DNA from: Olsenella uli DSM 7084
Lineage (GTDB): Bacteria; Actinomycetota; Coriobacteriia; Coriobacteriales; Atopobiaceae
Length of the DNA stretch: 64,000 bases
Assembly: GCF_000143845.1 (NCBI RefSeq)
Contig: NC_014363.1
Coordinates: 1,721,186 to 1,785,185, forward strand
Direction: 5' to 3'
Shown here: piece after piece, positions 15,212 to 34,876 of the stretch
Numbering within the stretch: the stretch's first letter is position 1
Layout of the letters: every line of letters starts with the position of its first letter
Made by a program: the position numbers and the translations under genes
The notes under the pieces: model-generated
Seen by the model: only the letters and a program-made list of their open reading frames with translations
What the model was told of the DNA's origin: nothing
The model's database searches: none

Positions 15212-15366
15212 GCCTCCCCGCAAGGGACTCCCCCAGCCTCCTTCGCGCGACTGCAGCGTCAGCCAGCCTGCCGACCTCCACGAGGGCCACGGCCCACCTC
15301 TGCATGAGGACCGCCTCGACCCGGGTGTAGCCGCACCGCGGCATCCGGATGCCCAGGCCGAGCTCG
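15212..15366 (-). pseudogene. N-terminal remnant of the helical membrane-protein family
   Basis: The minus frame reads ARGDELGLGIRMPRCGYTRV and continues to RRRLGESLAG. This matches the middle of the intact 369-residue paralog (16137-17246) from its residue ~95 onward. The first membrane segments are absent, and the rest is lost at the IS21 remnant junction. The same truncated start is present in the right copy (23214-23834), so the 5' truncation predates the duplication. Confidence 0.65.
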
Positions 15367-16085
15367 TCACCCCTCGCCGCCCACGCGCACGCCCAGGCCG
15401 TCTATGACCTGCCGGAGGGTGAAGTCCGAGGGGTCCACGCCGGCGGCGGAGAACAGGGCCCGCACGTCCATGCCCTCGTAGCACCAGACGTAGCAGGTCC
15501 CCCCTTCGCAGGGCACCTCCCGCACCCACGTGGGGGAGGCGCCCCCGACGGTCAGGTCGCGCACGGCCGGGTCGACGGACACGCCGAACGCGACGGGGCG
15601 ACCCGACGTGAGGCAGGCCGCGAGGGCGTCGGCGACGACCTCGGCCGTGGTGTAGTCGTACAGGGGCTCGAGCGGGCCCGACCTCTCGCCGGGCCTCGCC
15701 ACGCTCGCGCCCCAGAGGCCAGTGGCGGCGTAGCGCCCGCCCACGCGGGCGTACGTGACCATGCGGACCGCCGGGCACTTGGGCGACCCCGAGGGCTGGA
15801 CCACGAGCGCCTCGCCCGCGTCGGGGAAGTCCTCGACCACCTCGACGTCCGGGTCGCCCTCCGCGTAGGCGGAGGCCGCCTCGCCTATCGTGTCGCGCCA
15901 CCCCGCGTCGTCCGGCACGACCGTGGCGTCCCCGAGCGCCGCATCGGACCTCTCCCCCACGGACTGGGGCAGGTCGGCCGGGGAGGACGGGACGAAGGCG
16001 CAGGAGTACACGCATCCGCCCACTACCAGGGCGGGGATGGTGACGGCGACGATGGCCGCGATGGCGAGGGCGGCGCGCAGCCGAC
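15212..16085. repeat. Left copy of an 874-bp duplication
   Basis: Matches 23702-24575 at a constant offset of 8,490 bp, and every line compared was identical. It covers almost all of a membrane-protein gene plus the 5' end of a broken copy of the neighbouring helical-protein gene. The match ends abruptly at both sides. Confidence 0.9.
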
Positions 16086-16143
16086 CCTTCCGAGGGGGCC
16101 TGGCCGCCCGGGGGGAGGCGCCTGACGGAGGGGGCGCTACCAT
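15367..16143 (-). CDS. Membrane-anchored protein, left copy; candidate immunity
   Basis: A 258-residue protein with a short basic cytoplasmic start, one membrane segment (LRAALAIAAIVAVTIPALVV) and a large exported domain containing paired Cys residues (CEGGTCYVWC). From residue 20 on it is identical to the 259-residue protein at 23857-24636. The ATG overlaps the stop of the upstream 369-residue gene. I do not recognise the family. Its position behind Rhs tips in both copies and its single-anchor topology suggest immunity against a membrane-acting toxin (inference). Confidence 0.78.
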   Translation of the reverse strand: MVAPPPSGASPRAARPPRKGRLRAALAIAAIVAVTIPALVVGGCVYSCAFVPSSPADLPQSVGERSDAALGDATVVPDDAGWRDTIGEAASAYAEGDPDVEVVEDFPDAGEALVVQPSGSPKCPAVRMVTYARVGGRYAATGLWGASVARPGERSGPLEPLYDYTTAEVVADALAACLTSGRPVAFGVSVDPAVRDLTVGGASPTWVREVPCEGGTCYVWCYEGMDVRALFSAAGVDPSDFTLRQVIDGLGVRVGGEG

Positions 16144-17246
16144 CTCACGACCCCGAGGGCCACGAGGACGTTGAGGACGATCGTGGCGGCCACCAGCGCC
16201 AGGATGACGACGAGAAACACCTTACCGAACGTCGCGAGCACGTGCCGCAGGCCACGGGGGTGGCCCGCGAGCGCCTCGGCGGCATCGGCGTCGAGGGCGG
16301 CGGGATGCGGATCGACCGCAGGGTCCTGCACGAGCGAGGCATATAGTCCAGTGCCGGACGGGGCCTCCCCCGAGGAGAGCCGCCGGAGAGCCTCGGCAGC
16401 CAGCGCGCCGGCGCGGACGGACGGCGCAGCCATCGACGCACCGGCGAGCAGGAGCAGCTCTGCCTCCCGGTCGCCCGCGAGGGAGGCCTCCCGGGCGAGG
16501 GCGAGCCTCGCCTCGGAGGCGAGCCTGCGTCCCATGGTGCCACGGGCCTCGAGGTCCCTGACTTCCCTCTCGGAGAAGCCCGGCCCTCCGGAGGCGCGCC
16601 CCGGCGCGAAGAGCGCGAGGGCCGTGTCGATGGACACGGTTCCCACCGTCTCGAGAGCGCGCCAGGCGCGACCCGGTTCGGAGTGGGCGAGCGCGTCGCG
16701 GAACAGTTCCGCGTACGCCGCGGCGGCCTCCCCGTCACCGAGCCTGGCGGAGACGTCGGCGAGAAGCATGCACAGCGAGGCGCCATAGGGGGACCTGCCC
16801 GTGCGGCGTCTCCTCGCGAGCGACTCCTCCAGCCTCCTGCGGGCGGCCGCAGCGTCGGCGGCCCTGCCGACCTCCACCAGGGCCACGGCCCACCTCTGCA
16901 CGAGGACCGCCTCTATCCGGGTGTAGCCCCGTTTCGGCACCGGATCGGCCAGGCCGAGCTCGTCGCCCCTCGCCGCCAGCGCCGCCGGGTCGCAGGAGAC
17001 ATCGAGCAGCCTCTCGGCGGAACCGACGAGGGAGACATAGCGGAACGCCATGACCAGGAGTGCGGCCACGCAGATCGCAAAGGGAACCCATATCAGCACG
17101 TAGCCGAGCGGCGAGTGGTTGACGGCCGCATCCAGCCCAGGGCAGACGGCGCTGACGGCAATGAGGGTGACCACGTAGGCGAGGAAGAGCGCCCCAGGCA
17201 CCCGACCCCACCGACGGCATGACACAAGCACGCTTACCTTCGTCAC
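16137..17246 (-). CDS. Helical (TPR-like) membrane protein, intact member; candidate immunity
   Basis: A 369-residue protein. Two N-terminal membrane segments (about 17-35 and 48-68) precede a long cytoplasmic helical region rich in Ala/Arg/Glu, with repeat-like pairs such as QRWAVALVEVGRAADAAAAR. A C-terminal membrane segment (VFLVVILALVAATIVLNVLV) ends GVVRW. The start is the GTG at 17246, 7 nt after GGAGGTG. A short upstream frame ending RLLLEVF overlaps this start and may be the tail of a deleted gene. A truncated paralog and a remnant exist nearby. Function unknown; the location after the orphan Rhs tip suggests immunity. Confidence 0.72.
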   Translation of the reverse strand: MTKVSVLVSCRRWGRVPGALFLAYVVTLIAVSAVCPGLDAAVNHSPLGYVLIWVPFAICVAALLVMAFRYVSLVGSAERLLDVSCDPAALAARGDELGLADPVPKRGYTRIEAVLVQRWAVALVEVGRAADAAAARRRLEESLARRRRTGRSPYGASLCMLLADVSARLGDGEAAAAYAELFRDALAHSEPGRAWRALETVGTVSIDTALALFAPGRASGGPGFSEREVRDLEARGTMGRRLASEARLALAREASLAGDREAELLLLAGASMAAPSVRAGALAAEALRRLSSGEAPSGTGLYASLVQDPAVDPHPAALDADAAEALAGHPRGLRHVLATFGKVFLVVILALVAATIVLNVLVALGVVRW

Positions 17247-17281: not shown

Positions 17282-18109
17282 TCAGCCGCATGTACTGGAA
17301 AAGGACGGAATCATGGCGAAGATGAGACCACCAGCACCAGCACCAGCGAGCCCACCAGCACCAGCAGCGATTAATGCCTCTACTATCTCTCCACCAAAAA
17401 CCGAGATCACGACTATGGCAGCCGCAAGTGCCGTGTTGACGTGTGCGTCTGTTTGATCATGCGTTACAACGCCATTGTCATCAGTCGTGTTGTGAGACAA
17501 TCGAACGCCGCTTTGGGGGATACCCGCCGAGACACCAAGTCCCCAGTTGTTATCAGACTTCCCGCCTTGAGCGTCGAGGTCGAGAGACAGACCATACTGA
17601 CCCATCCCGAGCTTGGCACTTATGCCAACCGTATACCCGCCGTAGTTTCCTCCCCCCAGAGACACCGTCAAGCCGTTGTTCCAGCCTATGCTGACGACCC
17701 CCGGTATCCTTATGCCGCCTCCAGTGACCTTACCGTCGGTGATGTTCGTGTAGAGCCACCTGTCGCCCCCGGTGGAGACGGTCTTCGTCTGCGATGGCGT
17801 GATGCCCCACCAGCTACCCATGCAGCTTCCAGGTATGGTGGTCGTGGTGACCGAAGTCGCCGCGTGGTCATTCCACCACTTGCCCACGTCGTTTGCCCGG
17901 TCGCCGATCCACTTGCCCACGTCAGGCCAGCCGCCGTCGACGTCCACGAGGTTCACGGGGTCGCCGAAGCAGCACGCCCAGCGGTTGAGGGTGCGGGGCG
18001 AGGTCGCGTGGCCCCGCCTCGGGTCGGGCGCGAGCGACATAGAGTCGGCCACCGACAACACCTTCTGGTCCGCCTGGATCCTCGCTATGTCAGCGCATCT
18101 GCAGGCTAT
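17282..18109 (-). pseudogene. Orphan Rhs C-terminal tip fused to a helper-gene 5' end
   Basis: The frame starts after AGAAGGAG with ATA-GCC-TGC, encoding ACRCADI, the same residues as the helper at 29878-30237 (MACRCADI) but with ATA in place of ATG. About 18 helper-like residues follow, and the frame then joins the Rhs core end (PDPRRGHATSPRTLNRW, GDPVNLVDVDGG). The core DNA 17930-18030 is nearly identical to 25360-25460. After the core a different tip follows: Gly/Ser-rich beta-like sequence, then an Ala/Gly hydrophobic C-terminus. Internal GTG (18061) and ATG (18040) starts exist. The tip has lower GC than its surroundings. It is probably silent and could serve as a donor for recombination into the full Rhs gene. 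Confidence 0.72.
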
Positions 18110-18190
18110 CCAATCATCTCCTTCTGACGACGTTGGCGAAAGGCGATGGGCCGTTGGCCCTCTGGGAACGCCGGGGATGCCCGTCGCCGC

Positions 18191-20688: not shown

Positions 20689-21588
20689 CTAGGGGGCGAG
20701 GGCCCCCGCGAGCGCGCCGGGCGGCCCGGCGAGCGCGAAGCCCGCCAGGGCCTTCAGCGCCTTGTAGGCCACGACGCCCACGACGACGGTGCCTCCCACT
20801 ACCACCGCGCCCTCACCGACCTCCTGGGCGTCGGGCAGCCGCACCGCGTTCGTGTGCGTGGACGGCGCGGGGGACGTCGAGGCGGACGGCATGAGCACGC
20901 CGTCGAGCCGCACGCCCGTAACAGGGTCCTTTACGCCCCACTCCAGCGTCTCCGTGTCCGTCACGGAGGCAGAGGCCGCCCCGACGTCCTTTGAGACCGT
21001 GGCCGTTGCCCTTACCGCGCTGTAGCCACCTACCGGCTGCCACGCAAGAAGCACCTGGGACTCTCCTTCTATCCCATCGCCCGCAGGACCCTTAATCCCA
21101 ACTCCCGCCCACGTTTTCTTACCATCACTAACAAGAACGGGTCCAACTGAATCATCTCCAGTCAAATCAAACGTAAGCGACCCGGGCACCAGCCTCCCAT
21201 GGGAGTCCTTCCGGACCTCGGTCGAGAGCGGGGCGTCCCCGCTGCGGAGCGCGGCGTACCCCACGCCCATCGACGAGAGAGCCCTCCTGCGGCGCTCGAC
21301 CTCGCCCTCCAGCATGTCAAGGAGGCGCGCGACCTTCTCGTCCTCGCCCGATAGGGCCACGTCGCCCACCTGGGGCAGGGGCGAGAGCAGGCCGAGCAGC
21401 TCGGAGCCCAGGTCGATCGCGTAGATGCCGAGCTCGTCGGCGCCGTGGTCGCACGCGAGGGAGTAGACGACGGTGCCGAGGAACCCCTCCGCCCCCGACC
21501 CCACGGCCCCGTAGACCACGGCGTTGCCCTCCCTCGAGAGCGGAAGCGTCAGCGGGCGCTTCCCCTGGCGGGCCGGTCGACGGCGCGC
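20689..21588 (-). pseudogene. Truncated essC fragment fused to a tip-like tail
   Basis: The frame opens right after an upstream stop with RPARQGKRPLTLPLSREGN, which is the inter-domain segment of EssC; the DNA over about 55 bp matches 31690-31745. It continues as a second EssC ATPase domain of a different allele (GSGAEGFLGTVVYSLAC, IYAIDLGSELLGLL, then PQVGDVALSGEDEKVARLL). That homology stops near 21225. The remaining 180 residues are unrelated, include an AT-richer stretch (21050-21185) and end in a hydrophobic Gly/Val/Ala segment (VVVGGTVVVGVVAY) like the Rhs tips. The only plausible internal start is the GTG at 21519. Confidence 0.7.
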
Positions 21589-22959: not shown

Positions 22960-23220
22960 TACTCCTTGCGCTCCGTGATCGTGCAGCCGGAGCTGTATGC
23001 CTCGTATCTCGTCGTCGATTCGCCCACCGAGACCGAGTTTCCATCTCGATCCCAGACCAACGACTTATCGGGCAGCTCGTCGTCGAGCCACTCCATGAAC
23101 CCGTCGGGGGCACCGCTAGTATGGCACCTCGCCGATCATGGCGCACCACTCAGCGCCGTCGGGCGCAGCCGCGGCGGCCCCGACCGTCCAGTGGGTGGGG
23201 CCCAACGGGGGCACTACCAT
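22960..23220 (-). pseudogene. Small broken gene (about 86 residues if repaired)
   Basis: The ATG at 23220 overlaps the preceding stop (ATGGTAG, as at 16143). It reads THWTVGAAAAAPDG and CAMIGEVPY, then stops. In the adjacent frame the sequence continues SGAPDGFMEWLDDELPDKSL to GCTITERKE and stops at 22960, just before the lipoprotein ribosome site. The two halves look like one small cytoplasmic protein split by a frameshift near 23116. No family is recognised. It could be a decayed immunity gene. Confidence 0.45.
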
Positions 23221-23834
23221 CTCACGACCCCGAGGGCCACGAGGACGTTGAGGGCGATCGTGGCTGCCGCCAGTGCCAGGATGACGACGAGAAACGCCTT
23301 CCCGAACGCCGCTAGGGCGCGACGCAGGCCCCAGGGCCTGCCCGTGAGCGCGCCGGCGCCGAGGACGGCGGGGTGCGGGTCGACCGCAGGGGTCTTCGCG
23401 AGAGAGGCGCAGAGCTCGACCGTAGGTGCCTCCGCCCCCGAGGAAAGCAGCGGGAGGCCCTCGGCGGCAATCGCCCCGGCTCGGACGGACGGCGCGGCCA
23501 TCGACGTACCGGCGAGCAGGAGCAGCCCCTCCTCACGATCGCCCTCGAGCGTGCGCCGGGCGCGACCCGGCACGAAGCGGGTGAGCGCGTCGCTGAACAG
23601 CGCCGCGTACGCCACCGCGGCCTCCCCGTCGCCGAGCCTGGCGGAGACGTCGGCCAAGAGCATGCACAGCGATGCACCGTAGGGGGACCTGCCCGGGCGG
23701 CGCCTCCCCGCAAGGGACTCCCCCAGCCTCCTTCGCGCGACTGCAGCGTCAGCCAGCCTGCCGACCTCCACGAGGGCCACGGCCCACCTCTGCATGAGGA
23801 CCGCCTCGACCCGGGTGTAGCCGCACCGCGGCAT
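23214..23834 (-). pseudogene. 5'-truncated paralog of the helical membrane protein
   Basis: A 206-residue frame similar to residues ~100-369 of the protein at 16137-17246, including the conserved C-terminal membrane segment (AFLVVILALAAATIALN) and the ending GVVRW. The N-terminal membrane segments are missing, and about 50 residues in the middle are deleted. The first ATG (23834) has no convincing ribosome site. Upstream of it the frame runs into the neighbouring gene's 3' end. It is probably a decaying copy, though translation by coupling to the upstream gene (22-nt gap) is possible. Confidence 0.6.
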
Positions 23835-24575
23835 CCGGATGCCCAGGCCGAGCTCGTCACCCCTCGCCGCCCACGCGCACGCCCAGGCCGTCTATGACCT
23901 GCCGGAGGGTGAAGTCCGAGGGGTCCACGCCGGCGGCGGAGAACAGGGCCCGCACGTCCATGCCCTCGTAGCACCAGACGTAGCAGGTCCCCCCTTCGCA
24001 GGGCACCTCCCGCACCCACGTGGGGGAGGCGCCCCCGACGGTCAGGTCGCGCACGGCCGGGTCGACGGACACGCCGAACGCGACGGGGCGACCCGACGTG
24101 AGGCAGGCCGCGAGGGCGTCGGCGACGACCTCGGCCGTGGTGTAGTCGTACAGGGGCTCGAGCGGGCCCGACCTCTCGCCGGGCCTCGCCACGCTCGCGC
24201 CCCAGAGGCCAGTGGCGGCGTAGCGCCCGCCCACGCGGGCGTACGTGACCATGCGGACCGCCGGGCACTTGGGCGACCCCGAGGGCTGGACCACGAGCGC
24301 CTCGCCCGCGTCGGGGAAGTCCTCGACCACCTCGACGTCCGGGTCGCCCTCCGCGTAGGCGGAGGCCGCCTCGCCTATCGTGTCGCGCCACCCCGCGTCG
24401 TCCGGCACGACCGTGGCGTCCCCGAGCGCCGCATCGGACCTCTCCCCCACGGACTGGGGCAGGTCGGCCGGGGAGGACGGGACGAAGGCGCAGGAGTACA
24501 CGCATCCGCCCACTACCAGGGCGGGGATGGTGACGGCGACGATGGCCGCGATGGCGAGGGCGGCGCGCAGCCGAC
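23702..24575. repeat. Right copy of the 874-bp duplication
   Basis: See the left copy at 15212-16085 (offset 8,490). The left boundary falls inside the truncated helical-protein gene; the right boundary falls just inside the N-terminus of the membrane-anchored protein gene. Same orientation as the left copy. Confidence 0.9.
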
Positions 24576-24636
24576 GCCGCGGGCCCCTCGCGGCCCCCTG
24601 CCTCGTTCCGCCGCCCATCTGCATACGTCCCCCCAT
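23857..24636 (-). CDS. Membrane-anchored protein, right copy; candidate Rhs immunity
   Basis: A 259-residue protein, identical from residue ~22 to the left copy at 15367-16143. Only the cytoplasmic N-terminus (MGGRMQMGGGTRQG) differs. One membrane segment is followed by an external domain with a CEGGTCYVWC motif. The ATG at 24636 follows GAGGAGGG. It is the first gene downstream of the complete Rhs toxin (87-bp gap), the usual place for the immunity gene. The Rhs tip ends in hydrophobic segments, so an envelope-located immunity protein would make sense. This role is inferred from position only. Confidence 0.72.
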   Translation of the reverse strand: MGGRMQMGGGTRQGAARGPRRRLRAALAIAAIVAVTIPALVVGGCVYSCAFVPSSPADLPQSVGERSDAALGDATVVPDDAGWRDTIGEAASAYAEGDPDVEVVEDFPDAGEALVVQPSGSPKCPAVRMVTYARVGGRYAATGLWGASVARPGERSGPLEPLYDYTTAEVVADALAACLTSGRPVAFGVSVDPAVRDLTVGGASPTWVREVPCEGGTCYVWCYEGMDVRALFSAAGVDPSDFTLRQVIDGLGVRVGGEG

Positions 24637-24723: not shown

Positions 24724-27700
24724 CTAGCCCGCGCATGCGGCAGCGAAGGCCGGCGCCGACAGAAGCTGCCGTAGGATGTAGACCCAGCCGGCTGCCGCAG
24801 GAGCCTCGTCGACCCCCTCGACGCCCACTGCATTGTCGGCAACCGCCGCAATGACCACGACCGTCATGCCAGCCAGAGCGGCCGCGTAGCCGATCTGCGG
24901 CCAGCTGAAACCCTCGCCGACACTGGTCCGTGTCCCAATCGTAGTTCCTACGATATTCGGGAGTTTTGAGGAAACCGAGCACTTCACCCCTACGCCGGAG
25001 TGGGAAACCTCCCCTCCAAATGAAGACGTAGGTCCATCGCCACTCGTATAGTTAGTGGAACCTGAAATGCCCCATTTCTCTCCCCAACGAAGAGACACCG
25101 ATGTAGACAGCTTTATCTTCGTTCCAGGTATGGAGATTGACGGCGTGTTCAGGCTAATGCCAGTGGTGGAACCAGAGGCGTCCTGCTGCATCACGATCAG
25201 ACCGCCACCAGTATGCTGGTAGATTTCCGTACTCCCCTTGACGCCGTTGGCCTCAACGCTCTGCGTGCTCCGGGTCCTATCAACTCCATACACCTGCTTG
25301 TCCCAGAACTCCCGCGCGTCGTTTGCCCGGTCGCTGACCCAGCCGCCCACGTCCGGCCAGCCGCCGTCGACGTCCACGAGGTTCACGGGGTCGCCGAAGC
25401 AGCACGCCCAGCGGTTGAGGGTGCGGGGCGAGGTCGCGTGGCCCCGCCTCGGGTCGGGCGAGCAGAACCTCCGCGCGGAGGGGTCGTAGTCGCGCAGCCG
25501 CGCGTGGAGCAGGCCCGTCGCGGGGTCGGGCGCGTAGCCCGCGTAGCCGAACGCGAGGCCGTCCCAGCTTCCCCGCCCGAAGGGGTCCTCCAGGAGCGTC
25601 CTGGCGAGGTCCGACGTGGTCGCCAGCGGCGTGCCGTTGGCGTCGCTCACGAGGCAGGTGCCGCTCGACCACAGGGGCATCGCCCCGTCCGCGAGGGCGG
25701 GCCGCAGGTCGCCCCCGCGCCCCCAGGCCAGGGTGTTGCGCGTCTCGCGGAGCGGGTCTACCGCCCAGCGGAGGCTGCCGTCGGGCCCCTCCTGGGAGAC
25801 GCGGTTGCCGAGCGCGTCGTAGCCGTAGGTGGTGGCGCCGCGCTCGCCCGTGGACGAGACGAGCCTGTCGGCCGCGTCCCAGGAGAGCTCGAGGACGGGC
25901 GCGCCCTCGCCGTCGGTCACGCGCGAGAGGCGCGAGCGCGCGTCCCACTCGTAACGCCTGGAGCCCTCCGGGCCCTCGGAGCCCGCCATCCTGCCGGCCG
26001 CGTCGTAGGTGTAGGCGGTGGTGCCGCGCGGCGTGCTCGCGCGGAGCACGTTGCCCAGGGCGTCGTATTCCCAGGCGTCCCGCTCCCTGCCGTCCTCCGA
26101 CACGGAGAGGAGCCTGCCAGCCCCGTCGTACGAGTAGGCGAACTCACTCGTCGCTCCGTCGCGGGTGACCGTGCGCGCAACCCTCCTGCCGAGGCGGTCG
26201 TAGGCGTAGCCCTCGGACAGGGCGTCGTGCCCGTCGGCATCCCTCGCCACGAGCGAGGCCAGCCTGCCCCGCCCGTCGTAGGCGTAGGAGACGCTCGTGC
26301 CGTCCGAGAACTCCCTGCGCGCGACCCTCCCGGCGTCATCGTAGGCGTAGCGGACGCCCATGTCGCCCTGCGTGATGGCCGAGACCCTGTCGGCCCCGTC
26401 GTAGGCATAGGTGACCTTGGGAGCCTCGGAGTGGGCCACCGAGAGCAGCCTCCCCGCCCCATCGTACTCGTAGTCGACGGTCATACCGTCGCCCATGTCG
26501 GCGCGGACGGGGCGCCCCAGCCCGTCGAAGCTGACCGCCACCGACGCGCCGCCGTCACGCACCGTGGCGTGCCGCAAGTCGCGGGAGAGCGAGCCCTCCC
26601 AGACGGTCCCGTCCGGCCTGGCGACGCGCACGCTCCGGCCGTCCGCGCCCACCTGCGACGTGGTGGTGCCCAGGGCATCCTCGTGCGAGCGCAGGCTCCC
26701 GTCCCGAGCCCACCTGAAGGACTCCGTCCCGAGGGGTCCCTCGATGCGGCTCAACCGGCCGCCCTTGGTGTACGTGTAACGCTCCTCGAGGAGGGTGGGC
26801 CCTCCCTCTCCCTCCGAGACGGAGACGGCGCTCGCGCGCCCCGCGGCGTCACGCGAGACGGAGGCGCTCACGCCGTCGGCCGCCACGCGCACGATCCTGC
26901 CCGCCCAGTCGCACTCGAAGGATGCCCTCTCGCCCACGGCGTTGGTGGTGGAGACGACGTTGCCGCTGGCGTTCCGCCTGGCCTCGAGCAGGAGCCCCTC
27001 CCCGTCGAAGGAGGCGGTGACCCTCCCGAGCGCATCGCGCGCCACGCTGACGTCGCCCGCGCGGTTGTCGGAGACGGACCTCACCCTCCCGTCGAAGCCA
27101 TACTTGATCGACTGGGACGTCCCCAGACAGTCCGAGACCCCGACGACCCTGCCCGCCCCGTCGTAGTCCCACGCGACCCACCCGCCCTTCGCGTCGGTGG
27201 CGCGGCGCAGGCGCCCCTCCTCGTCGTACTCGCACGCCAGCGTGCGGCCGTGGGAGTCCTCGGAGAACGTCATGCGCCCCGCCTCGTCGTAGGCGGCGCT
27301 CATCCACTGCCCGTCGTCGAGCTCCGCCCTGACGACGCGCCCGGCCTCGTCCCGCTCGACGCTCAGCCGATGCTCCCCCTCGGTCACACGAGCGAGGTCG
27401 CCACGGGCGTCATAGGCATAGGTCCGCGGAGCTTCGCCCTCGGCCTGCTCGGACGTGAGCCTGCCCTCCGCGTCCCAGCCATAGCGAACCGTCCCGGATG
27501 GCGTAACGACGCGGGTGGGCCTCCCGAGGGGGTCGCGCTCGACCCTCGTCTCCCCCTCGCCGGGCGTCTGGAGCGATATGGGCTCGCGCGAGGCGTTGAG
27601 GGCGATGGACGTCCGGGTGCCGTCCGGGTTGGCCACGGAGAAGCCGCTCCCGTCCTTCTCCCAGGTGACCGCGAACGCGTTGCCCTCGCCATCCGTCACG

Positions 27701-29442
27701 GAGGTGGGGAGCCCGTCCTCATACGCGACCGAGAGGAGGCGCCTGCCGGCGACCGTCACCCCGCTGACCCTGCGGCCGTCCCTCTCGATGTCCACGCCGG
27801 CTCCGCTCGGGAGCTCCATCCTGCTCACGTCGCCCGCGGCGTCGTAGCCCCAGCGCGTGCGGGCACCCGCGCCGTCCAGGCGCCCCTCCCAGAGGTTCCG
27901 CTCCGTGTAGGCGTAGCGCTCGGAGACGGCACCCCTCCTGACCTCCGTGGTCCTGCCCTGCTCGTCCTGAACGAACGCCTCGCGCCCGGAGCGTGCCGAC
28001 TCGTGCGTCGTGCTGCCGGTGGTGTACGAGAAGACGTCCTCGCCCTCCCCCGCCATCTGCTGGCGCACGACGCGGCCGTGGGCGTCGTAGGACTGCTTGA
28101 GCCTCCACCTGCCCGCCGGGTCAACGACGCCGCACAGGCGACCCTTCCCGTCGTAGGCGTAACCCCAAGTGGCGCCATCCGGTCTGGTGACGGACGCCAG
28201 GAGGTCGCCCTCGTAGGCATAGCTCACCTCGCGGCCGATATGGTCGCGGACGAGCACGACGTGCGTACCGGCGCAGGTAATGTCAGCATGCCTGCTACCA
28301 CCGCCGGTCTCGAGGCGGACGGGACGCCCGGCCCCGTCGCGCCGCACGATGGCGGTGACGCCCAAAAGGTCGCGCACCTCGGCGAGTCTGCCGGTCCCGT
28401 CGAAGACCCGGCTCGTGCCGTCCGGGCGCTCGAGGACGTAGGAGTCCTCCTCCCTCGTGATGGTCTCCTCCACCTCGTCGACCGTCTTCCACACGTCGCC
28501 GTCACCGGAGGGCGCGAAGGCGCGCCGCCTGCCGTCCGGACGCAGGTGGGTGACGAGGGCACCATCGAACGCCAGGCACTCGTCGAGCGTGCTCGACCAG
28601 CCGAGGCCGAAGAGGCCGACCTCGGGGGAGTCCGAGTTGTACATCCTTTCCACCGAGGCGCCCGGCGCCCCACCCAACCTGAGGTCGAGCTCCGGGTAGA
28701 TGAAGTTGCCCGTAACCATGTTGACGGGGTCGCCGCCGTAGGCGCAGCTGCTGGTGGCGAGGCCGCGCATGGCTGCTGCCGCCCCCGTGGCTCTGGCATA
28801 GTTCGCGACGGCCTTGGCCATGGCGTTCTCCCTCATCGCCAGCTCGTTCGGGTCGAGCTTGGACATGCCTGCGGTGATCTTGTCCACGAGGGAGGACACG
28901 CCGCTGAGGTAGACGTCCCAGTCCCCCGAGAACGTCTCGAGCTTTCCCTTGGCGTCCTTGACCGCGGCCTCCGCGGCGTCGTCCACGCTGAGGGAGCAGG
29001 TCCTGAGCTGAGAGAGGATGCCGCGTATGTCCGCGATCGCTGGCTCCACCCTGCCCAGCGCCTCCCCAAGGGTCGTCACGTCGCCCCTCACGCCGCCGGC
29101 GGCACCGTCGTCAAGCACGAGCCTGGCGCCGCCGGAGTCCCCCGAGCCACCCAGGGAGGCGGGGAGCGCCTCGGCCTTGCCGCGCAGCGCCCTGGCGCCC
29201 TGCGCGACGTCGTCAAGCAGGTCCCCCACCGAGGAGATGTCGTCGGCCACGCCCTGCTCGACTTGGTTGGCGACGATGTCGATGCGGTGTGTCCACTCAT
29301 CGGCAGCGGTGCCCTCCCAGGCACCCTTGAGCTCTCCGCTCGCGCTGGTCAGCCTGTCCTTCTGGCTGGCGACCCCCCGGGCGACGCTGTGGTACCTGCT
29401 CGCGGCGCTCTCGCACTCGCCTATGGTCAACCTGATGCCCAT
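24724..29442 (-). CDS. WXG-Rhs polymorphic toxin (T7SS effector)
   Basis: A 1,572-residue protein. Residues 1-230 form a helical WXG/LXG-like secretion domain (AWEG near 42). A DUF6531-type entry segment follows at about 245 (GDPVNMVTGNFIYPELDL), then more than 25 YD/Rhs repeats to about 1,320, which form the encapsulating shell. The core ends with DPRRGHATSPRTLNRW and GDPVNLVDVDGG (about 1,330-1,362). The last 210 residues are a variable tip: lower GC, Gly/Ser/Thr-rich beta pattern (SISIPGTKIKLSTSVSL), then hydrophobic helices at the C-terminus. This suggests a membrane-acting toxin (inference). The ATG follows GAGGAGG. Upstream genes encode WXG partners; downstream is a candidate immunity gene. 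Confidence 0.9.
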   Translation of the reverse strand: MGIRLTIGECESAASRYHSVARGVASQKDRLTSASGELKGAWEGTAADEWTHRIDIVANQVEQGVADDISSVGDLLDDVAQGARALRGKAEALPASLGGSGDSGGARLVLDDGAAGGVRGDVTTLGEALGRVEPAIADIRGILSQLRTCSLSVDDAAEAAVKDAKGKLETFSGDWDVYLSGVSSLVDKITAGMSKLDPNELAMRENAMAKAVANYARATGAAAAMRGLATSSCAYGGDPVNMVTGNFIYPELDLRLGGAPGASVERMYNSDSPEVGLFGLGWSSTLDECLAFDGALVTHLRPDGRRRAFAPSGDGDVWKTVDEVEETITREEDSYVLERPDGTSRVFDGTGRLAEVRDLLGVTAIVRRDGAGRPVRLETGGGSRHADITCAGTHVVLVRDHIGREVSYAYEGDLLASVTRPDGATWGYAYDGKGRLCGVVDPAGRWRLKQSYDAHGRVVRQQMAGEGEDVFSYTTGSTTHESARSGREAFVQDEQGRTTEVRRGAVSERYAYTERNLWEGRLDGAGARTRWGYDAAGDVSRMELPSGAGVDIERDGRRVSGVTVAGRRLLSVAYEDGLPTSVTDGEGNAFAVTWEKDGSGFSVANPDGTRTSIALNASREPISLQTPGEGETRVERDPLGRPTRVVTPSGTVRYGWDAEGRLTSEQAEGEAPRTYAYDARGDLARVTEGEHRLSVERDEAGRVVRAELDDGQWMSAAYDEAGRMTFSEDSHGRTLACEYDEEGRLRRATDAKGGWVAWDYDGAGRVVGVSDCLGTSQSIKYGFDGRVRSVSDNRAGDVSVARDALGRVTASFDGEGLLLEARRNASGNVVSTTNAVGERASFECDWAGRIVRVAADGVSASVSRDAAGRASAVSVSEGEGGPTLLEERYTYTKGGRLSRIEGPLGTESFRWARDGSLRSHEDALGTTTSQVGADGRSVRVARPDGTVWEGSLSRDLRHATVRDGGASVAVSFDGLGRPVRADMGDGMTVDYEYDGAGRLLSVAHSEAPKVTYAYDGADRVSAITQGDMGVRYAYDDAGRVARREFSDGTSVSYAYDGRGRLASLVARDADGHDALSEGYAYDRLGRRVARTVTRDGATSEFAYSYDGAGRLLSVSEDGRERDAWEYDALGNVLRASTPRGTTAYTYDAAGRMAGSEGPEGSRRYEWDARSRLSRVTDGEGAPVLELSWDAADRLVSSTGERGATTYGYDALGNRVSQEGPDGSLRWAVDPLRETRNTLAWGRGGDLRPALADGAMPLWSSGTCLVSDANGTPLATTSDLARTLLEDPFGRGSWDGLAFGYAGYAPDPATGLLHARLRDYDPSARRFCSPDPRRGHATSPRTLNRWACCFGDPVNLVDVDGGWPDVGGWVSDRANDAREFWDKQVYGVDRTRSTQSVEANGVKGSTEIYQHTGGGLIVMQQDASGSTTGISLNTPSISIPGTKIKLSTSVSLRWGEKWGISGSTNYTSGDGPTSSFGGEVSHSGVGVKCSVSSKLPNIVGTTIGTRTSVGEGFSWPQIGYAAALAGMTVVVIAAVADNAVGVEGVDEAPAAAGWVYILRQLLSAPAFAAACAG

Positions 29443-29532: not shown

Positions 29533-29832
29533 CTACTCGGACTTCATGGAGCTCGCCGCCTTGTCGTCCGCCTCCCTGTACGTCTCGTTCGACTTTGCGA
29601 TCGACCCCGACTCCGCCCGGAGAATCCGCGCGGCCGCCCGTGTGAACCGCACGAGCGTGTCCGAGGCGGTCGAGAAGGAACTCCGGCCGTCCCCCTCCCA
29701 GGCGCCGAGCAGCGCGCTCGAGGCGTCGCTCAGAGACCCGGCCTGGCCGTCCATGCCATCCGCCAGCGTGCCCAACTTGTGCGAGGCCGCGCTCAGGGCC
29801 CCGTGGTCGACCACTATCGTCTTTCCCGCCAT
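29533..29832 (-). CDS. WXG100-family T7SS protein
   Basis: A 99-residue helical hairpin with the WXG motif in LLGAWEGDGRSSFSTASD, the standard length of the family. It begins MAGKTIVVDHGALSAAS. The start follows GGAGG by 7 nt. It lies between the helical partner (29878) and the Rhs toxin gene (90 bp downstream). It probably forms a targeting complex with the toxin's N-terminal helical domain for EssC recognition. Confidence 0.88.
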   Translation of the reverse strand: MAGKTIVVDHGALSAASHKLGTLADGMDGQAGSLSDASSALLGAWEGDGRSSFSTASDTLVRFTRAAARILRAESGSIAKSNETYREADDKAASSMKSE

Positions 29833-29877: not shown

Positions 29878-30237
29878 CTAACCGCCGTTCCCTTCCTGCT
29901 TCCTCTGCCTCTCCTCCGCTGCCTTCCTGTCCTGTTCGGCGTGGTAGGCCCTGTCCTCCTCCTGGTACGCCTTGAGCGTGGCCTGCAGGTCCGCCCGCTT
30001 GGCGCGGACGTCGGACGCGATCTTGCCCCGTGCGTCGCGCACGCCCTTCGAGTAGATGTCGCTCGAGACGCCCGCCATGGAGACCTCCACGGCCGTGCCG
30101 ACCGCGCTCGCAAGGCTCCTCGTCGCCTCCTCTACGCCCGAGGCGGCGGTGTCGAGGGCGGCAAGCCTCCCCTCGGCCTGCGCGAGTGTGTTGAGGTCCA
30201 CATTGACGTTCCCGATGTCAGCGCATCTGCATGCCAT
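29878..30237 (-). CDS. Helical T7SS toxin-partner protein (MACRCADI family)
   Basis: A 119-residue, highly helical protein with a Cys-rich start (MACRCADI). A first helix pair (LNTLAQAEGRLAALDTAASG) is followed by a long charged C-terminal coiled coil (KAYQEEDRAYHAEQDRKAAE). In position and shape it matches DUF5082/YwqH-type LXG partners. The ATG follows GAAGGGA. It is the first gene of the partner-WXG100-Rhs module, 85 bp after essC. Its first eight codons recur at the orphan tip locus (18109). Confidence 0.75.
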   Translation of the reverse strand: MACRCADIGNVNVDLNTLAQAEGRLAALDTAASGVEEATRSLASAVGTAVEVSMAGVSSDIYSKGVRDARGKIASDVRAKRADLQATLKAYQEEDRAYHAEQDRKAAEERQRKQEGNGG

Positions 30238-30322: not shown

Positions 30323-33300
30323 CTAGGGGCCCCACTCGCCGTCGGGGGCCACCGCGAACTTTGTCGGCCTCGCCTGGGCGTCGCGCACGTAGAAGCCCCC
30401 GCCCTCGCCCAGGCCGTTCCTCAGCTGGGAGGCGGGCGTGGCCACCTGGAGCGCGTAGGCGTTCGCCAGCCCCGGGCCGACCCAGACGACGCCGCTGCGG
30501 AACATCAGCCTCTGGCCCCACTGGCTCGACTGCAGGGCGGTGAGGTCGGAGGCGGACGCCGACGCGAGCAGCAGCGTGCCGTCGTGCCCGCCGTCGCACA
30601 CGATGGCGGCCAGCTGCGCCCCATCCGGGCCCTCGAACGCGTCCCGCGCGCCCGGCGCGAGCACGAGGCGCCTCCCGCCGTCCCCCTCGCACGAGCCGAG
30701 CACCACGCCCGCAGGGCCCGAGACCGCCCACCACGGCACGGCGCCCAGGACCCCGGCCGGGTCGAGGACGATGACGTCCCACCCCCGCTCGTGGGCGGCC
30801 GTCGCACACGCCAGCATGAACGGGACGCACTGGAACGCCTGGGTGGCGCACACGAGGTGGGCGCGGTCCCCCGCCCCGCCCAGGGAGACCGGCGTGAAGT
30901 CGTCGCCCGCGATGCCGACGGGCAGCCCGCCACCACCCTCGCCCCCGGGCAGGAGGCCCGGGGTGAGGACCTCGGGCAGGGAGGGCACGCACCTCGTGGG
31001 GGCGCCCCACCTGCCGACCTCCTCCGCGACGCGCGCGGCGATCGCCGCCTGGGCGGGAACCCCCTCGTCGGCCACGTAACAGCACTGGAACATGTAGAGG
31101 TCGTCGCCCTGCCTCACGAGGCCGCGCCCGCGCCCCTCGGGGAGCGCCGCCCCGCGCACGCTGCCGAGCACCGCGGGGTAGTCCGCCTCGTCGGCGAGCG
31201 CCATCACGAGGGAGAGCCCGACGCTCGCGCGCATGCGGAAGCGCACGTCGCGCAGGGTGTCGGCGAAGAGCGCGAAGTGCATCCCGTAGCGCGGCCCCTC
31301 ACGCAGGAGCGAGGCGAGCCGCTCCTCTATCGCCGGTACGAGCTCGAGGAGCTCCGCGACCCCGTTGAGCACGACCACGACGGGGCACATCCGCCCCGCG
31401 CCGTCGTGGCGCGCGTTGTAGTCGGCCAGCCCCGCGTAGCCCCGGGCGAGCGCGGTGCGCCTGTCCGACATGACCTTGGCCAGGTACTTGAAGAGGTCCG
31501 ACACCCTCCGCGCGTCGCTGGCCGGCATCGCGTCGGGGACCTGCGGCGCGCCGCCAAAGGCGAGCAGCCCACCGGTGCCGGCGTCCACGACGTAGGCGCA
31601 GGCCTCCTCCGGGCTGGCATCAAGCATGTTCCAGACCAGGGAGAGCGCGAGGTCCTCCCTGCCCGACGACGCATGGCCGTACACCGCCACGTTGCCCTCC
31701 CTCGAGAGCGGAAGCGTCAGCGGGCGCTTCCCCTGGCGGGCCGGGTCGTCGAGCTCGCCCACGACGGGGTCGAGCTCCCAGGGCGCGTGGCCGGCGCGCG
31801 CGTCGGGGTAGCGGGCCCTCAGGGCCGCGACGGTGGGGTGGGCCTCCAGCGGCGGCAGCCACAGCCGCCTCGCCTCGCGGCCGCCCGCCGCGCGGCAGAC
31901 CTCGGCGAGCACCGCGTCCAGCTCGGTGCCCGCGGCCGGCCCCCGGGCCCCGGGCCTCGCCGAGGCGAGCTGGGCCCCGCAGGCGTCGCAGAGCTCCACG
32001 GACAGGTCGCGGGAGGGCGCGGCGCCCCCGCCCGGCGCGCAGGGGGCGCCGGCCCAGGCGGCCTGGCCCAGGACGTAGCGCTCGTCGTAGCCCACCAGCA
32101 AAAGGAAGCGGCCCGGCCCCTCGAGCGCCGCCGCGTCCGGGCGGCGTATCACCTCCCTGGAGTCGGCGGCGTCCGCCACCCTCAGGCACACGCGGAAGCG
32201 CGAGTTGGCCTGGATCTGGTCGGAGACCACGCCCGTGGGCTTCTGGGTGGCCAGCACCAGGTGGACGCCGAGCGAGCGGCCTATGCGCGCCGCCGACACC
32301 AGGCCGTCCATGAACTCGGGCTCCTGGGCCTTGAGCTCGGCGAACTCGTCGGCCACGACGAAGAGGTGCGGCATGGGCTCGGAGAGCTCGCCGGCGGCGA
32401 AGTGCCTCTGGTAGGAGGAGACGTCCATCGTGGCGTCTCCGGTCGTGCGCTTGGCCCCGGCGAGCAGGGCCTGCCTGCGCACGAGCTCGGCCCGGAGCGA
32501 CGCCAGCGAGCGCGCCACCTCCGCCCCGTCGAGGTTGGTGACCGTGCCCGCCAGGTGCGGCAGGCGCAGGCCCTCGCGGGAGAAGGCGTCGGCGAGGCCG
32601 CCGCCCTTGTAGTCGATGAGCACGAAGGCGGCCTGCTCCGGCGGGAAGTGCATGGCCGTGGAGAGGATCCAGGTGACGAGCAGCTCGCTCTTGCCCGAGC
32701 CCGTGGTGCCCGCGACGAGGCCGTGCGGCCCGTCGAAGGCCTCCTGCGGGTCCAGCACGGCGAGGGCCCCGCGGGAGTCGAGGCCGATGGGCGCCGCGAG
32801 GCTGCGCGAGGAGTCGGCCTGGGCCCAGAGCCCCTCCACGTCGAGGTCCGCCACCGAGCCCGCCCGGAACGTCTCGAGGAAGCCGAGCGACGCCGGCAGC
32901 TCGAAGGCCGCCTCGTCGCCCCCCAGGTCGAGGCGGGAGAGCCGGGAGGCGAGGCGCGCCATGCCCACGGCGGCCACGGGCGGGTCGGCCTCGAAGGGCT
33001 GCTCGCTGCCGGCCACGTCGGCGCGGTCGTAGAGGCGGGAGCCCTCTCCCTCGCCCGAGCCCAGCTCGAGCACGCGCAGGCACTCGCGCGGCAACTCGTC
33101 CACCGCATCCGCCATGAAGAGCAGCGAGAAGCCCCGGTTGCCCTGGAGGTCCATGAGGCGCGCCAGCGCGTCCGAGGGGTCCACGAGCTCGCGGTTTGCG
33201 CAGAGCACCAGGTAGTAGGTGCCATAGTCGGCAACCTGGCGCTTCGCGGCATCGCCCGAGCGGCTTCCCAGCTCACGTGCGAGGTAGCCCGAGAGCTCGC

Positions 33301-34876
33301 GCATCGACGCCTCGTCGCTCGCGATGAGGCGCGTGTGGCCGCCGTCGGCGAGCGCATGCGGCAGCGCGAAGAGGAACTCCCATTCCTCTCGCTCGTCCTG
33401 CCCCACCACGGCCGCCACCTTCACGTCGTGGAAGCCGTAGAGCGTGGCCACCTGCGCGACGAGCGCGCGCACGAGTCCCCAGCGCCGGCCACGCTCGCCC
33501 ACCAGGCCCGTCACCCAGGAGGACATGAGATCGAGCGCGATGGGGGCGCCCTCGAGCACCGGCGGGCGCTCCGAGAGGCTGCGGGCCAGGTCCAGGAGGT
33601 CGTCCTTGTCCATCGTGAAGCGGCGCTCGGGCCACCTGAAGTCGGCCTCGAGCGGCAGCGTGCCCGTGCCCACGCGCAGCTGCATGAAGTCGGCCTCGAG
33701 CGGGCTGCGACTCATGAGCCTGGGGTCGAGTGCCTCCGCCCTGCGCAGGCACTCGGCGGCGCTCACGCGGTTCTCGGCGAGTATGGAGGCCTGCTCGTCA
33801 CGCTCGCGGCGGAACTCCATCTCGAGCGAGGCGAGGTAGTCGGAGTAGGCGCTGCGGCGGCGCTCCTCGTCGCGGGCCGCCTTCCTGCGCTCGTAGCGGC
33901 GCGTGATCTGGGGCCAGATCATCATGCCGCCCATCATGGAGACGCACATGGCGATGGAGGGTGCCGTGCTGAGCGCGTCGGCTCCACCCGCGATGCGCGA
34001 GACCGCGTTGGCGCCCATGAATATCGAGCTCATGGCCATCAGGAAGGACGGGCCCATCTTCACGATGGCGGGGGTGTCGTCGGGTTCCTTCGCGCGCGGC
34101 GGCTCCTCGACGTTGTAGGCCTTGCGGTGGACCGTGCGCATGAGGCGCGGCGCGGGCCAGAACGGGTGCGCGTCGGGAAGCTGGTCGTCGGGCGTCGCCT
34201 CGGGGGCGCGGGCGACGAGCTCGTCGTGGTCGATGGGCACGGCCGCCTCCCCGAGCCGCTCCGCGAGGCCTCTGGGGGCGTTCATGAGCAGGACCCTCTT
34301 CCCCGCAAGGATCGTGAGGTCCATGACCTGGACCACGTCGCCCGGCGCGAGGGCCGCGGGGACGTGGGGGGTCAGGGCCTGCCCGTTCACGAAGGTCCCG
34401 TTGGCGCTCCCCAGGTCGCACACGGAGAGCGACTCCCCCTCCAGCTTGAGCTCGGCATGGCGGGCCGAGACCCACCGCGTGTCATACGCAAGCTCGCAGG
34501 ACGCGTCACGCCCTATCACGACCGAGCCGTCGCGCACCAGGGCGAGCTTGCGGTAGTCGGCCAGGCCCACGGTGGCGCTGCGCACGAAGACGCTCGCACC
34601 GCCTGCGGCGCGTCCGCCCTCGAGCGTGAAGGCCTGGGTGCCCGTGCCGGTGAGGGCTGCACGCTCCAGCTCCTCGCCCGCCTCGTCGGCCAGGCTCGCC
34701 CCTCCCATGGGGCGCAGGAAGACCCCCTCCTCGCCGCACGAGACGCTTGCCACGGCATGGCTGCGCCCCTCTCCCGTGCCATCCGTGAGATGGCGGATGC
34801 CACGGGAGAGGGTGCCTACGGTCGTGACGTAGGCGTTTCCGTCGATTACGACGGTGATGAGCAGGCTGGATGTCAT
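30323..34876 (-). CDS. essC: T7SS membrane ATPase EssC (FHA + FtsK/SpoIIIE)
   Basis: The T7SS motor, 1,517 residues. The N-terminal FHA region (about 1-205) includes VIGRDASCELAY, VSARHAEL and DLGSANGTFVNG. Two membrane segments lie at about 268-315 (MAMSSIFMGANAV, IAMCVSMMGGMMIW). The first ATPase domain is intact: Walker A GTTGSGKSELL near 722 and Walker B-like LFVVADEFAEL near 840. The second (GHASSGREDLAL near 1,065) and third (ATQAFQCVPFM near 1,344) have lost the Walker lysine. Order and domain layout are those of Firmicutes-type EssC. It follows the esxA-like gene by 69 bp. A fragment of another essC allele lies at 20689-21588. Confidence 0.95.
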   Translation of the reverse strand: MTSSLLITVVIDGNAYVTTVGTLSRGIRHLTDGTGEGRSHAVASVSCGEEGVFLRPMGGASLADEAGEELERAALTGTGTQAFTLEGGRAAGGASVFVRSATVGLADYRKLALVRDGSVVIGRDASCELAYDTRWVSARHAELKLEGESLSVCDLGSANGTFVNGQALTPHVPAALAPGDVVQVMDLTILAGKRVLLMNAPRGLAERLGEAAVPIDHDELVARAPEATPDDQLPDAHPFWPAPRLMRTVHRKAYNVEEPPRAKEPDDTPAIVKMGPSFLMAMSSIFMGANAVSRIAGGADALSTAPSIAMCVSMMGGMMIWPQITRRYERRKAARDEERRRSAYSDYLASLEMEFRRERDEQASILAENRVSAAECLRRAEALDPRLMSRSPLEADFMQLRVGTGTLPLEADFRWPERRFTMDKDDLLDLARSLSERPPVLEGAPIALDLMSSWVTGLVGERGRRWGLVRALVAQVATLYGFHDVKVAAVVGQDEREEWEFLFALPHALADGGHTRLIASDEASMRELSGYLARELGSRSGDAAKRQVADYGTYYLVLCANRELVDPSDALARLMDLQGNRGFSLLFMADAVDELPRECLRVLELGSGEGEGSRLYDRADVAGSEQPFEADPPVAAVGMARLASRLSRLDLGGDEAAFELPASLGFLETFRAGSVADLDVEGLWAQADSSRSLAAPIGLDSRGALAVLDPQEAFDGPHGLVAGTTGSGKSELLVTWILSTAMHFPPEQAAFVLIDYKGGGLADAFSREGLRLPHLAGTVTNLDGAEVARSLASLRAELVRRQALLAGAKRTTGDATMDVSSYQRHFAAGELSEPMPHLFVVADEFAELKAQEPEFMDGLVSAARIGRSLGVHLVLATQKPTGVVSDQIQANSRFRVCLRVADAADSREVIRRPDAAALEGPGRFLLLVGYDERYVLGQAAWAGAPCAPGGGAAPSRDLSVELCDACGAQLASARPGARGPAAGTELDAVLAEVCRAAGGREARRLWLPPLEAHPTVAALRARYPDARAGHAPWELDPVVGELDDPARQGKRPLTLPLSREGNVAVYGHASSGREDLALSLVWNMLDASPEEACAYVVDAGTGGLLAFGGAPQVPDAMPASDARRVSDLFKYLAKVMSDRRTALARGYAGLADYNARHDGAGRMCPVVVVLNGVAELLELVPAIEERLASLLREGPRYGMHFALFADTLRDVRFRMRASVGLSLVMALADEADYPAVLGSVRGAALPEGRGRGLVRQGDDLYMFQCCYVADEGVPAQAAIAARVAEEVGRWGAPTRCVPSLPEVLTPGLLPGGEGGGGLPVGIAGDDFTPVSLGGAGDRAHLVCATQAFQCVPFMLACATAAHERGWDVIVLDPAGVLGAVPWWAVSGPAGVVLGSCEGDGGRRLVLAPGARDAFEGPDGAQLAAIVCDGGHDGTLLLASASASDLTALQSSQWGQRLMFRSGVVWVGPGLANAYALQVATPASQLRNGLGEGGGFYVRDAQARPTKFAVAPDGEWGP

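Follow-up and report, generated by a model that had tools for sequence, protein, structure and literature searches.

An orphan Rhs tip joined to a helper-gene start downstream of a predicted type VII-linked Rhs locus in Olsenella uli

We analyzed a stretch of 64,000 nucleotides from Olsenella uli DSM 7084 (NC_014363.1, positions 1,721,186 to 1,785,185; hereafter the window, to which all coordinates refer unless a locus handle is given) and focused on the orphan Rhs reading frame at 17282–18109 of the minus strand and on the intact Rhs locus upstream of it. The features are listed in Table 1. In the intact locus, an EssC-type ATPase, a WXG100-like protein and a small helper of the MACRCADI family are encoded upstream of an rhs gene whose product carries DUF6531, RHS repeats and a C-terminal tip (tip A). 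This arrangement points to a type VII-linked Rhs toxin locus of the LrhA type, and export of the Rhs protein is predicted.

The frame running from 18109 to 17282 on the minus strand is a single open frame of 275 codons that begins with ATA (IACRCADIARIQADQKVLSVADSMSLAPDPRRGHATSP...), carries AAGGAG 8 nt 5′ of this codon, and is present as a single copy in the source genome (2.05 Mb, one contig). The initial annotation had described a ribosome site and a MACRCADI helper start with ATA in place of ATG, followed by a jump into the Rhs core end and a new C-terminal tip (tip B). Both descriptions agreed with our results: the helper homology was above chance (local alignment score of 59; 300 shuffles gave at most 27), and residues 27–82 matched the intact Rhs at 45 of 56 positions. 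The weld is located at about 18031, where CGCCCGACC begins to be common to the orphan frame and Rhs. All four intact helpers compared start with ATG; they are the local one and those of G039, G038 and G120, the last being a genome of another genus in the same family.

Table 1. Features of the orphan and intact Rhs loci, with related loci in other genomes.
Feature	Position	Strand	Remark
Former-helper ribosome-binding region, AAGGAG 8 nt before ATA	18110..18131	-	Sequence; homologous to G120 helper leader
MACRCADI helper start, first ~24–25 codons, start codon ATA	18034..18109	-	Match to helper family
Rhs core end (5′ homology arm), 106 bp identical to 25355–25460	17925..18030	-	Weld just upstream, ~18031
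Linker and new C-terminal tip (tip B), hydrophobic stretch at end	17282..17924	-	GC 0.58, compared with 0.72–0.76 around
imm369, three hydrophobic segments, GTG start 35 nt past tip B stop	16137..17246	-	Candidate tip B immunity
c258a, one N-terminal hydrophobic segment	15367..16143	-	Copy of c258b beside active Rhs
3′ homology arm, 874 bp	15212..16085	-	Exact match to 23702–24575
Fragment of another imm369-family gene	15213..15374	-	
imm206, shortened imm369-family gene without two N-terminal hydrophobic segments	23214..23834	-	
c258b, directly 3′ of active Rhs	23857..24636	-	Candidate tip A immunity
Intact Rhs with tip A	24724..29442	-	Weak N-terminal WXG100 match, DUF6531, RHS repeats
WXG100-like protein	29533..29832	-	Match below curated cut-off
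Intact local MACRCADI helper	29878..30237	-	
EssC-type ATPase of type VII system	30323..34876	-	TIGR03928, E = 4e-208, below curated cut-off
Paired c258 tract loci	L011 3260–4039; L029 19453–20000 with L030 1–226; L009 8148–10493		G038 and G120
Tip B remnant	L008 9680–9907, also L040	-	G117; no Rhs match nearby

The length of tip B after the core motif is approximately that of tip A, and tip B is open to its stop. The GC content of tip B (0.58) is close to that of the active tip (0.59), and that of the tip B surroundings is 0.72–0.76. No significant match to tip B was obtained in Pfam, NCBIfam, PADLOC or PDB sequences, and a profile comparison of the two tips without the core gave no detectable sequence relation. 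The structure predicted for tip B, for which tip A served as the second row, had a mean predicted local distance difference test score of 30 and was discarded.

A short conserved piece of the Rhs core precedes tip B, the delivery part is absent, and the frame has no normal start codon; a sequencing error at the ATA is possible in principle. The in-frame alternative starts, GTG at 18061 and ATG at 18040, are weak, and no good ribosome site was read ahead of either. Because it has neither a delivery part nor a normal start, tip B probably undergoes little or no translation in the present cell and should be silent or nearly so; low translation from ATA, as the initial annotation had suggested, is plausible. 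Production of tip B in the cell from the GTG, the ATG or, weakly, the ATA codon, with imm369 as the partner in a toxin-antitoxin pair, would have a precedent in a Salmonella orphan Rhs reported as such a pair (PMC7043789), and the start of imm369 35 nt past tip B and the two in-frame codons are compatible with it. The lack of a good ribosome site at 18061 and 18040 argues against it, and we consider it unlikely. Even less credible, to the point of being extremely unlikely, is a working short toxin in which the helper N-terminus serves as a new type VII export tag for tip B. The fusion is in frame with about 24 helper residues kept, and the intact helper belongs to a secretion operon; against this, the start is ATA where the four other helpers have ATG, just a fifth of the helper is left, and the WXG-like start of Rhs is gone.

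We compared the helper piece with the intact helpers. Residues 1–21 of the orphan frame were 71% identical to the G120 helper (E = 2e-5), and the DNA of the ribosome site and helper start was 78% identical to that of G120 over 63 bp (E = 2e-7). In regards to the local helper, 12 kb away, a clear match was limited to the first 23 bp (91%). The piece is thus closer to the G120 helper than to the local helper (IACRCADIARIQADQKVLS versus MACRCADIAKIQTDQRLLS). Since it is of the G120 type, the module from which it came would not be a recent copy of the neighbouring module, and a recent local duplication as the origin of the cassette was rejected on this match. An origin by tandem duplication and deletion of the intact local Rhs module is accordingly disfavoured and is in our view very unlikely. 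The core end, at 109 of 110 bp identical to that of the local Rhs, and the exact 3′ arm speak for such an origin; the G120-like helper start and ribosome site, the unrelated tips, a core end about equally close to that of G120 (107/110) and a different gene order after the tip speak against it.

The order of the pieces in the orphan frame (helper start, then Rhs end) and their strand are those of the intact module, the pattern expected from an internal deletion. We consider it likely (probability of roughly 0.7) that a second helper-WXG-Rhs module lost an internal segment, which left an orphan tip/immunity cassette, and we infer that the weld arose in a single deletion event. This module would have carried a G120-type helper and a tip other than tip A. 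The deletion would have removed approximately 4.5–5 kb, comprising most of the helper gene, all of wxg and about 1320 rhs codons, and would have fused the helper, at codon ~24, with the end of the Rhs core, in frame by chance; the start codon would have turned to ATA before or after this event. The initial annotation had likewise proposed an internal deletion of such a module, and this part stands; a helper of the local type was not supported.

The borders of the cassette were located by comparison with relatives. The gene before the orphan frame (18191 onward) shows conservation in G039 and G120 as far as 18242 and has a different end there, and for the DNA from the helper leader to about 18242 no relative was obtained in the five genomes searched. 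The right border is just past the tip B stop; imm369 and its leader are conserved from 17278 in G039 and G038, in which another gene precedes imm369. The tip cassette is thus lineage-specific among the genomes compared.

The orphan module is located downstream of a full-length rhs gene and shares with it core homology that could be used for recombination: 17925–18030 and 25355–25460 form an exact 106-bp match at a distance of 7430 bp on the same strand. The near-identical core DNA of about 100 bp that the initial annotation had described at 7.4 kb was thus confirmed; it does not mark a special tie to the neighbour. Of the first 110 bp of the core end, 109 were shared by the orphan frame and the intact local Rhs, 107 by the orphan frame and G120 and 104 by the orphan frame and G039; the intact local Rhs and G120 shared 108. 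The core ends of three genera are near-identical (103–109/110), so that the match is no proof that the orphan frame derives from its neighbour. The DNA identity between the local and G120 Rhs genes was about 60% in the N-terminal half, about 95% at residues 1000–1375 and about 60% in the tip. The fourfold-degenerate site difference between the two was 0.08 for the core and 0.63 for the Rhs N-terminal half, compared with 0.38 for rpoB, which was used as the divergence control; an ABC transporter was dropped from this role for want of a clear orthologue (best 41–45%). Since the core difference is far below that of rpoB, these values indicate that the Rhs core was exchanged between genera after the genus split and that one edge of the exchanged region is the tip border. 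The same mosaic is visible along the aligned genes (window 24727–29442 and L009 10622–15334), in which the N-terminal half and the tip are divergent and residues ~1000–1375 are near-identical.

Directly after tip B lie imm369 and then c258a. The imm369 product is 90% identical in G039 and 89% identical in G038. All four genomes have a c258 homologue behind rhs; in G038 the two genes are separated by about 1.6 kb. These positions make imm369 the best candidate for immunity to tip B and c258 a candidate for immunity to tip A, and imm369 and c258a probably provide immunity at present. The two local c258 copies are identical from about residue 21 onward and differ in the first ~20 residues. The 3′ arm, which lies beyond tip B and imm369, contains no mismatch over 874 bp and spans most of an immunity-like gene; it is a new observation, overlooked in the initial annotation, and a stronger sign of exchange than the core match. 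Between genera (23860–24636 and L010 11030–11803), the ratio of nonsynonymous to synonymous substitution rates (dN/dS) of c258 was near 1.1 with intact frames, which suggests relaxed or diversifying selection.

Conversion-like tracts were found in the paired c258 genes of other genomes. The Rhs-linked and imm369-linked copies of G039 have different N-termini and only three further base differences; within G038 and within G120, the paired copies are identical over the last ~240–300 columns and different before. In a c258 tree, copies from the same genome group together for the local genome, G039 and G120, and the imm369-linked c258 of G038 has a front close to G039 and an end equal to its own Rhs-linked copy. 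These patterns fit repeated gene conversion between active and orphan loci. A recent duplication could explain the local pair; it does not explain the G038 mosaic. Such tracts in the paired immunity-like genes of four genomes, among them G038, G039 and G120, indicate that active and spare loci exchange DNA.

Under the deletion origin, tip B would be a spare available for transfer to the active Rhs by homologous recombination. If a crossover took place in the 106-bp core arm, 7430 bp would be lost and Rhs would carry tip B, followed by imm369 and c258a. The retained c258a would probably still protect against tip A, since it equals c258b outside the first ~20 residues. The spare tip and its candidate immunity gene, enclosed between the 106-bp and 874-bp arms, could thus form a built-in switch in which one crossover swaps the weapon and keeps the old immunity; we regard this specific role as doubtful. 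The initial annotation had suggested a tip switchable by recombination, and the homology required for recombination is present in both arms; switching itself was not seen in the genomes searched.

The cassette may alternatively have the same deletion origin and be a dead relic, with tip B as a pseudogene fragment in a decaying island where only the immunity genes, or nothing, matter. We consider this possible at somewhat less than even odds. It is consistent with the ATA start, the truncated pieces nearby (imm206, the imm fragment at 15213 and an EssC-like fragment at 21166–21567), the tip B remnant in G117 and neighbouring genes without strong constraint. It is less readily reconciled with a full-length tip frame free of stops and frameshifts over ~250 codons and with the 874-bp exact arm, which indicates recent exchange with the active locus.

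Several results weigh against reading the locus as a tip/immunity cassette derived from a second module. The collections comprised 140 genomes of the family and 396 of the class, the latter only sampled, with one genome per species, and pattern scans covered 84,980 species. In none of these was tip B found on a full Rhs, the finding that the initial annotation had named as support for a switchable repertoire, and none was found in plasmids or viral contigs. The only other trace was a remnant of ~60 residues in G117, an Olsenella metagenome-assembled genome, which suggests that tip B decays elsewhere; in the dN/dS comparison with this remnant, synonymous sites were saturated over 56 codons. Moreover, imm369 stands beside c258 in G038 and G039 without the tip, and imm369 and tip B may have met by chance. 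The dN/dS values of imm369 and c258 between genomes (~0.6–1.1) do not indicate strong constraint, and the 106-bp arm is short compared with the Salmonella case.

Orphan Rhs tips are already known from Salmonella and Listeria; the weld to a helper start and the two exact arms are unusual here. The cassette resembles the orphan rhs-CT/rhsI modules of Enterobacteriaceae (Salmonella STM0292; PMC3967940, PMC7043789) in that core homology to the main gene permits fusion. In Salmonella, 522 bp of core DNA at 95% identity mediate fusion of the orphan rhs-CT with the main rhs, compared with 106 bp of exact identity in Olsenella, and the main immunity gene is lost in this fusion unless a duplication of the locus comes first (PMC3967940). 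The Salmonella orphan is type VI-associated, whereas the Olsenella cassette is associated with type VII; furthermore, the Olsenella frame begins in a helper gene and has an extra 874-bp exact arm with an immunity-like gene behind the tip. Switching was demonstrated in Salmonella and would be possible by analogy in Olsenella. The same tip on a full-length Rhs in relatives has been reported for Salmonella orphans and is a frequent companion, not a strict requirement.

The type VIIb secretion system (T7SSb) loci of Listeria seeligeri, a member of a different phylum, also carry a type VII-linked Rhs with DUF6531, WXG100 and small helical partners between essC and rhs, and contain truncated lrhA genes with differing tips that are proposed tip donors (PMC10327511). 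These shortened copies lack the N-terminal part and partner genes, as in Olsenella, and form a proposed reservoir; they keep Rhs repeats, whereas the Olsenella orphan keeps ~35 core residues and a partner-gene start. The Listeria immunity protein LrhI has ~260 residues and one N-terminal transmembrane segment (PMC10327511), and c258 is similar to it in size and in its single segment. Orphan cdiA-CT/cdiI modules of contact-dependent inhibition systems have also been named (PMC7043789). They are similar in having a spare tip and immunity genes behind an intact delivery gene. These modules differ in their two-partner (CdiB) export and have no Rhs shell. A spare-tip role, as known in Salmonella and suggested in Listeria, is possible in principle for the orphan cassette and, if true, would mean that silent spare Rhs tips, a principle known from Salmonella, also accompany type VII secretion in a high-GC actinobacterial family related to Olsenella.

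A second weld was observed at 20692–21567 on the minus strand, where the EssC-like fragment is joined to the end of a gene conserved in G039 and G120. This fragment is 37% identical to residues 1048–1171 of the local EssC.
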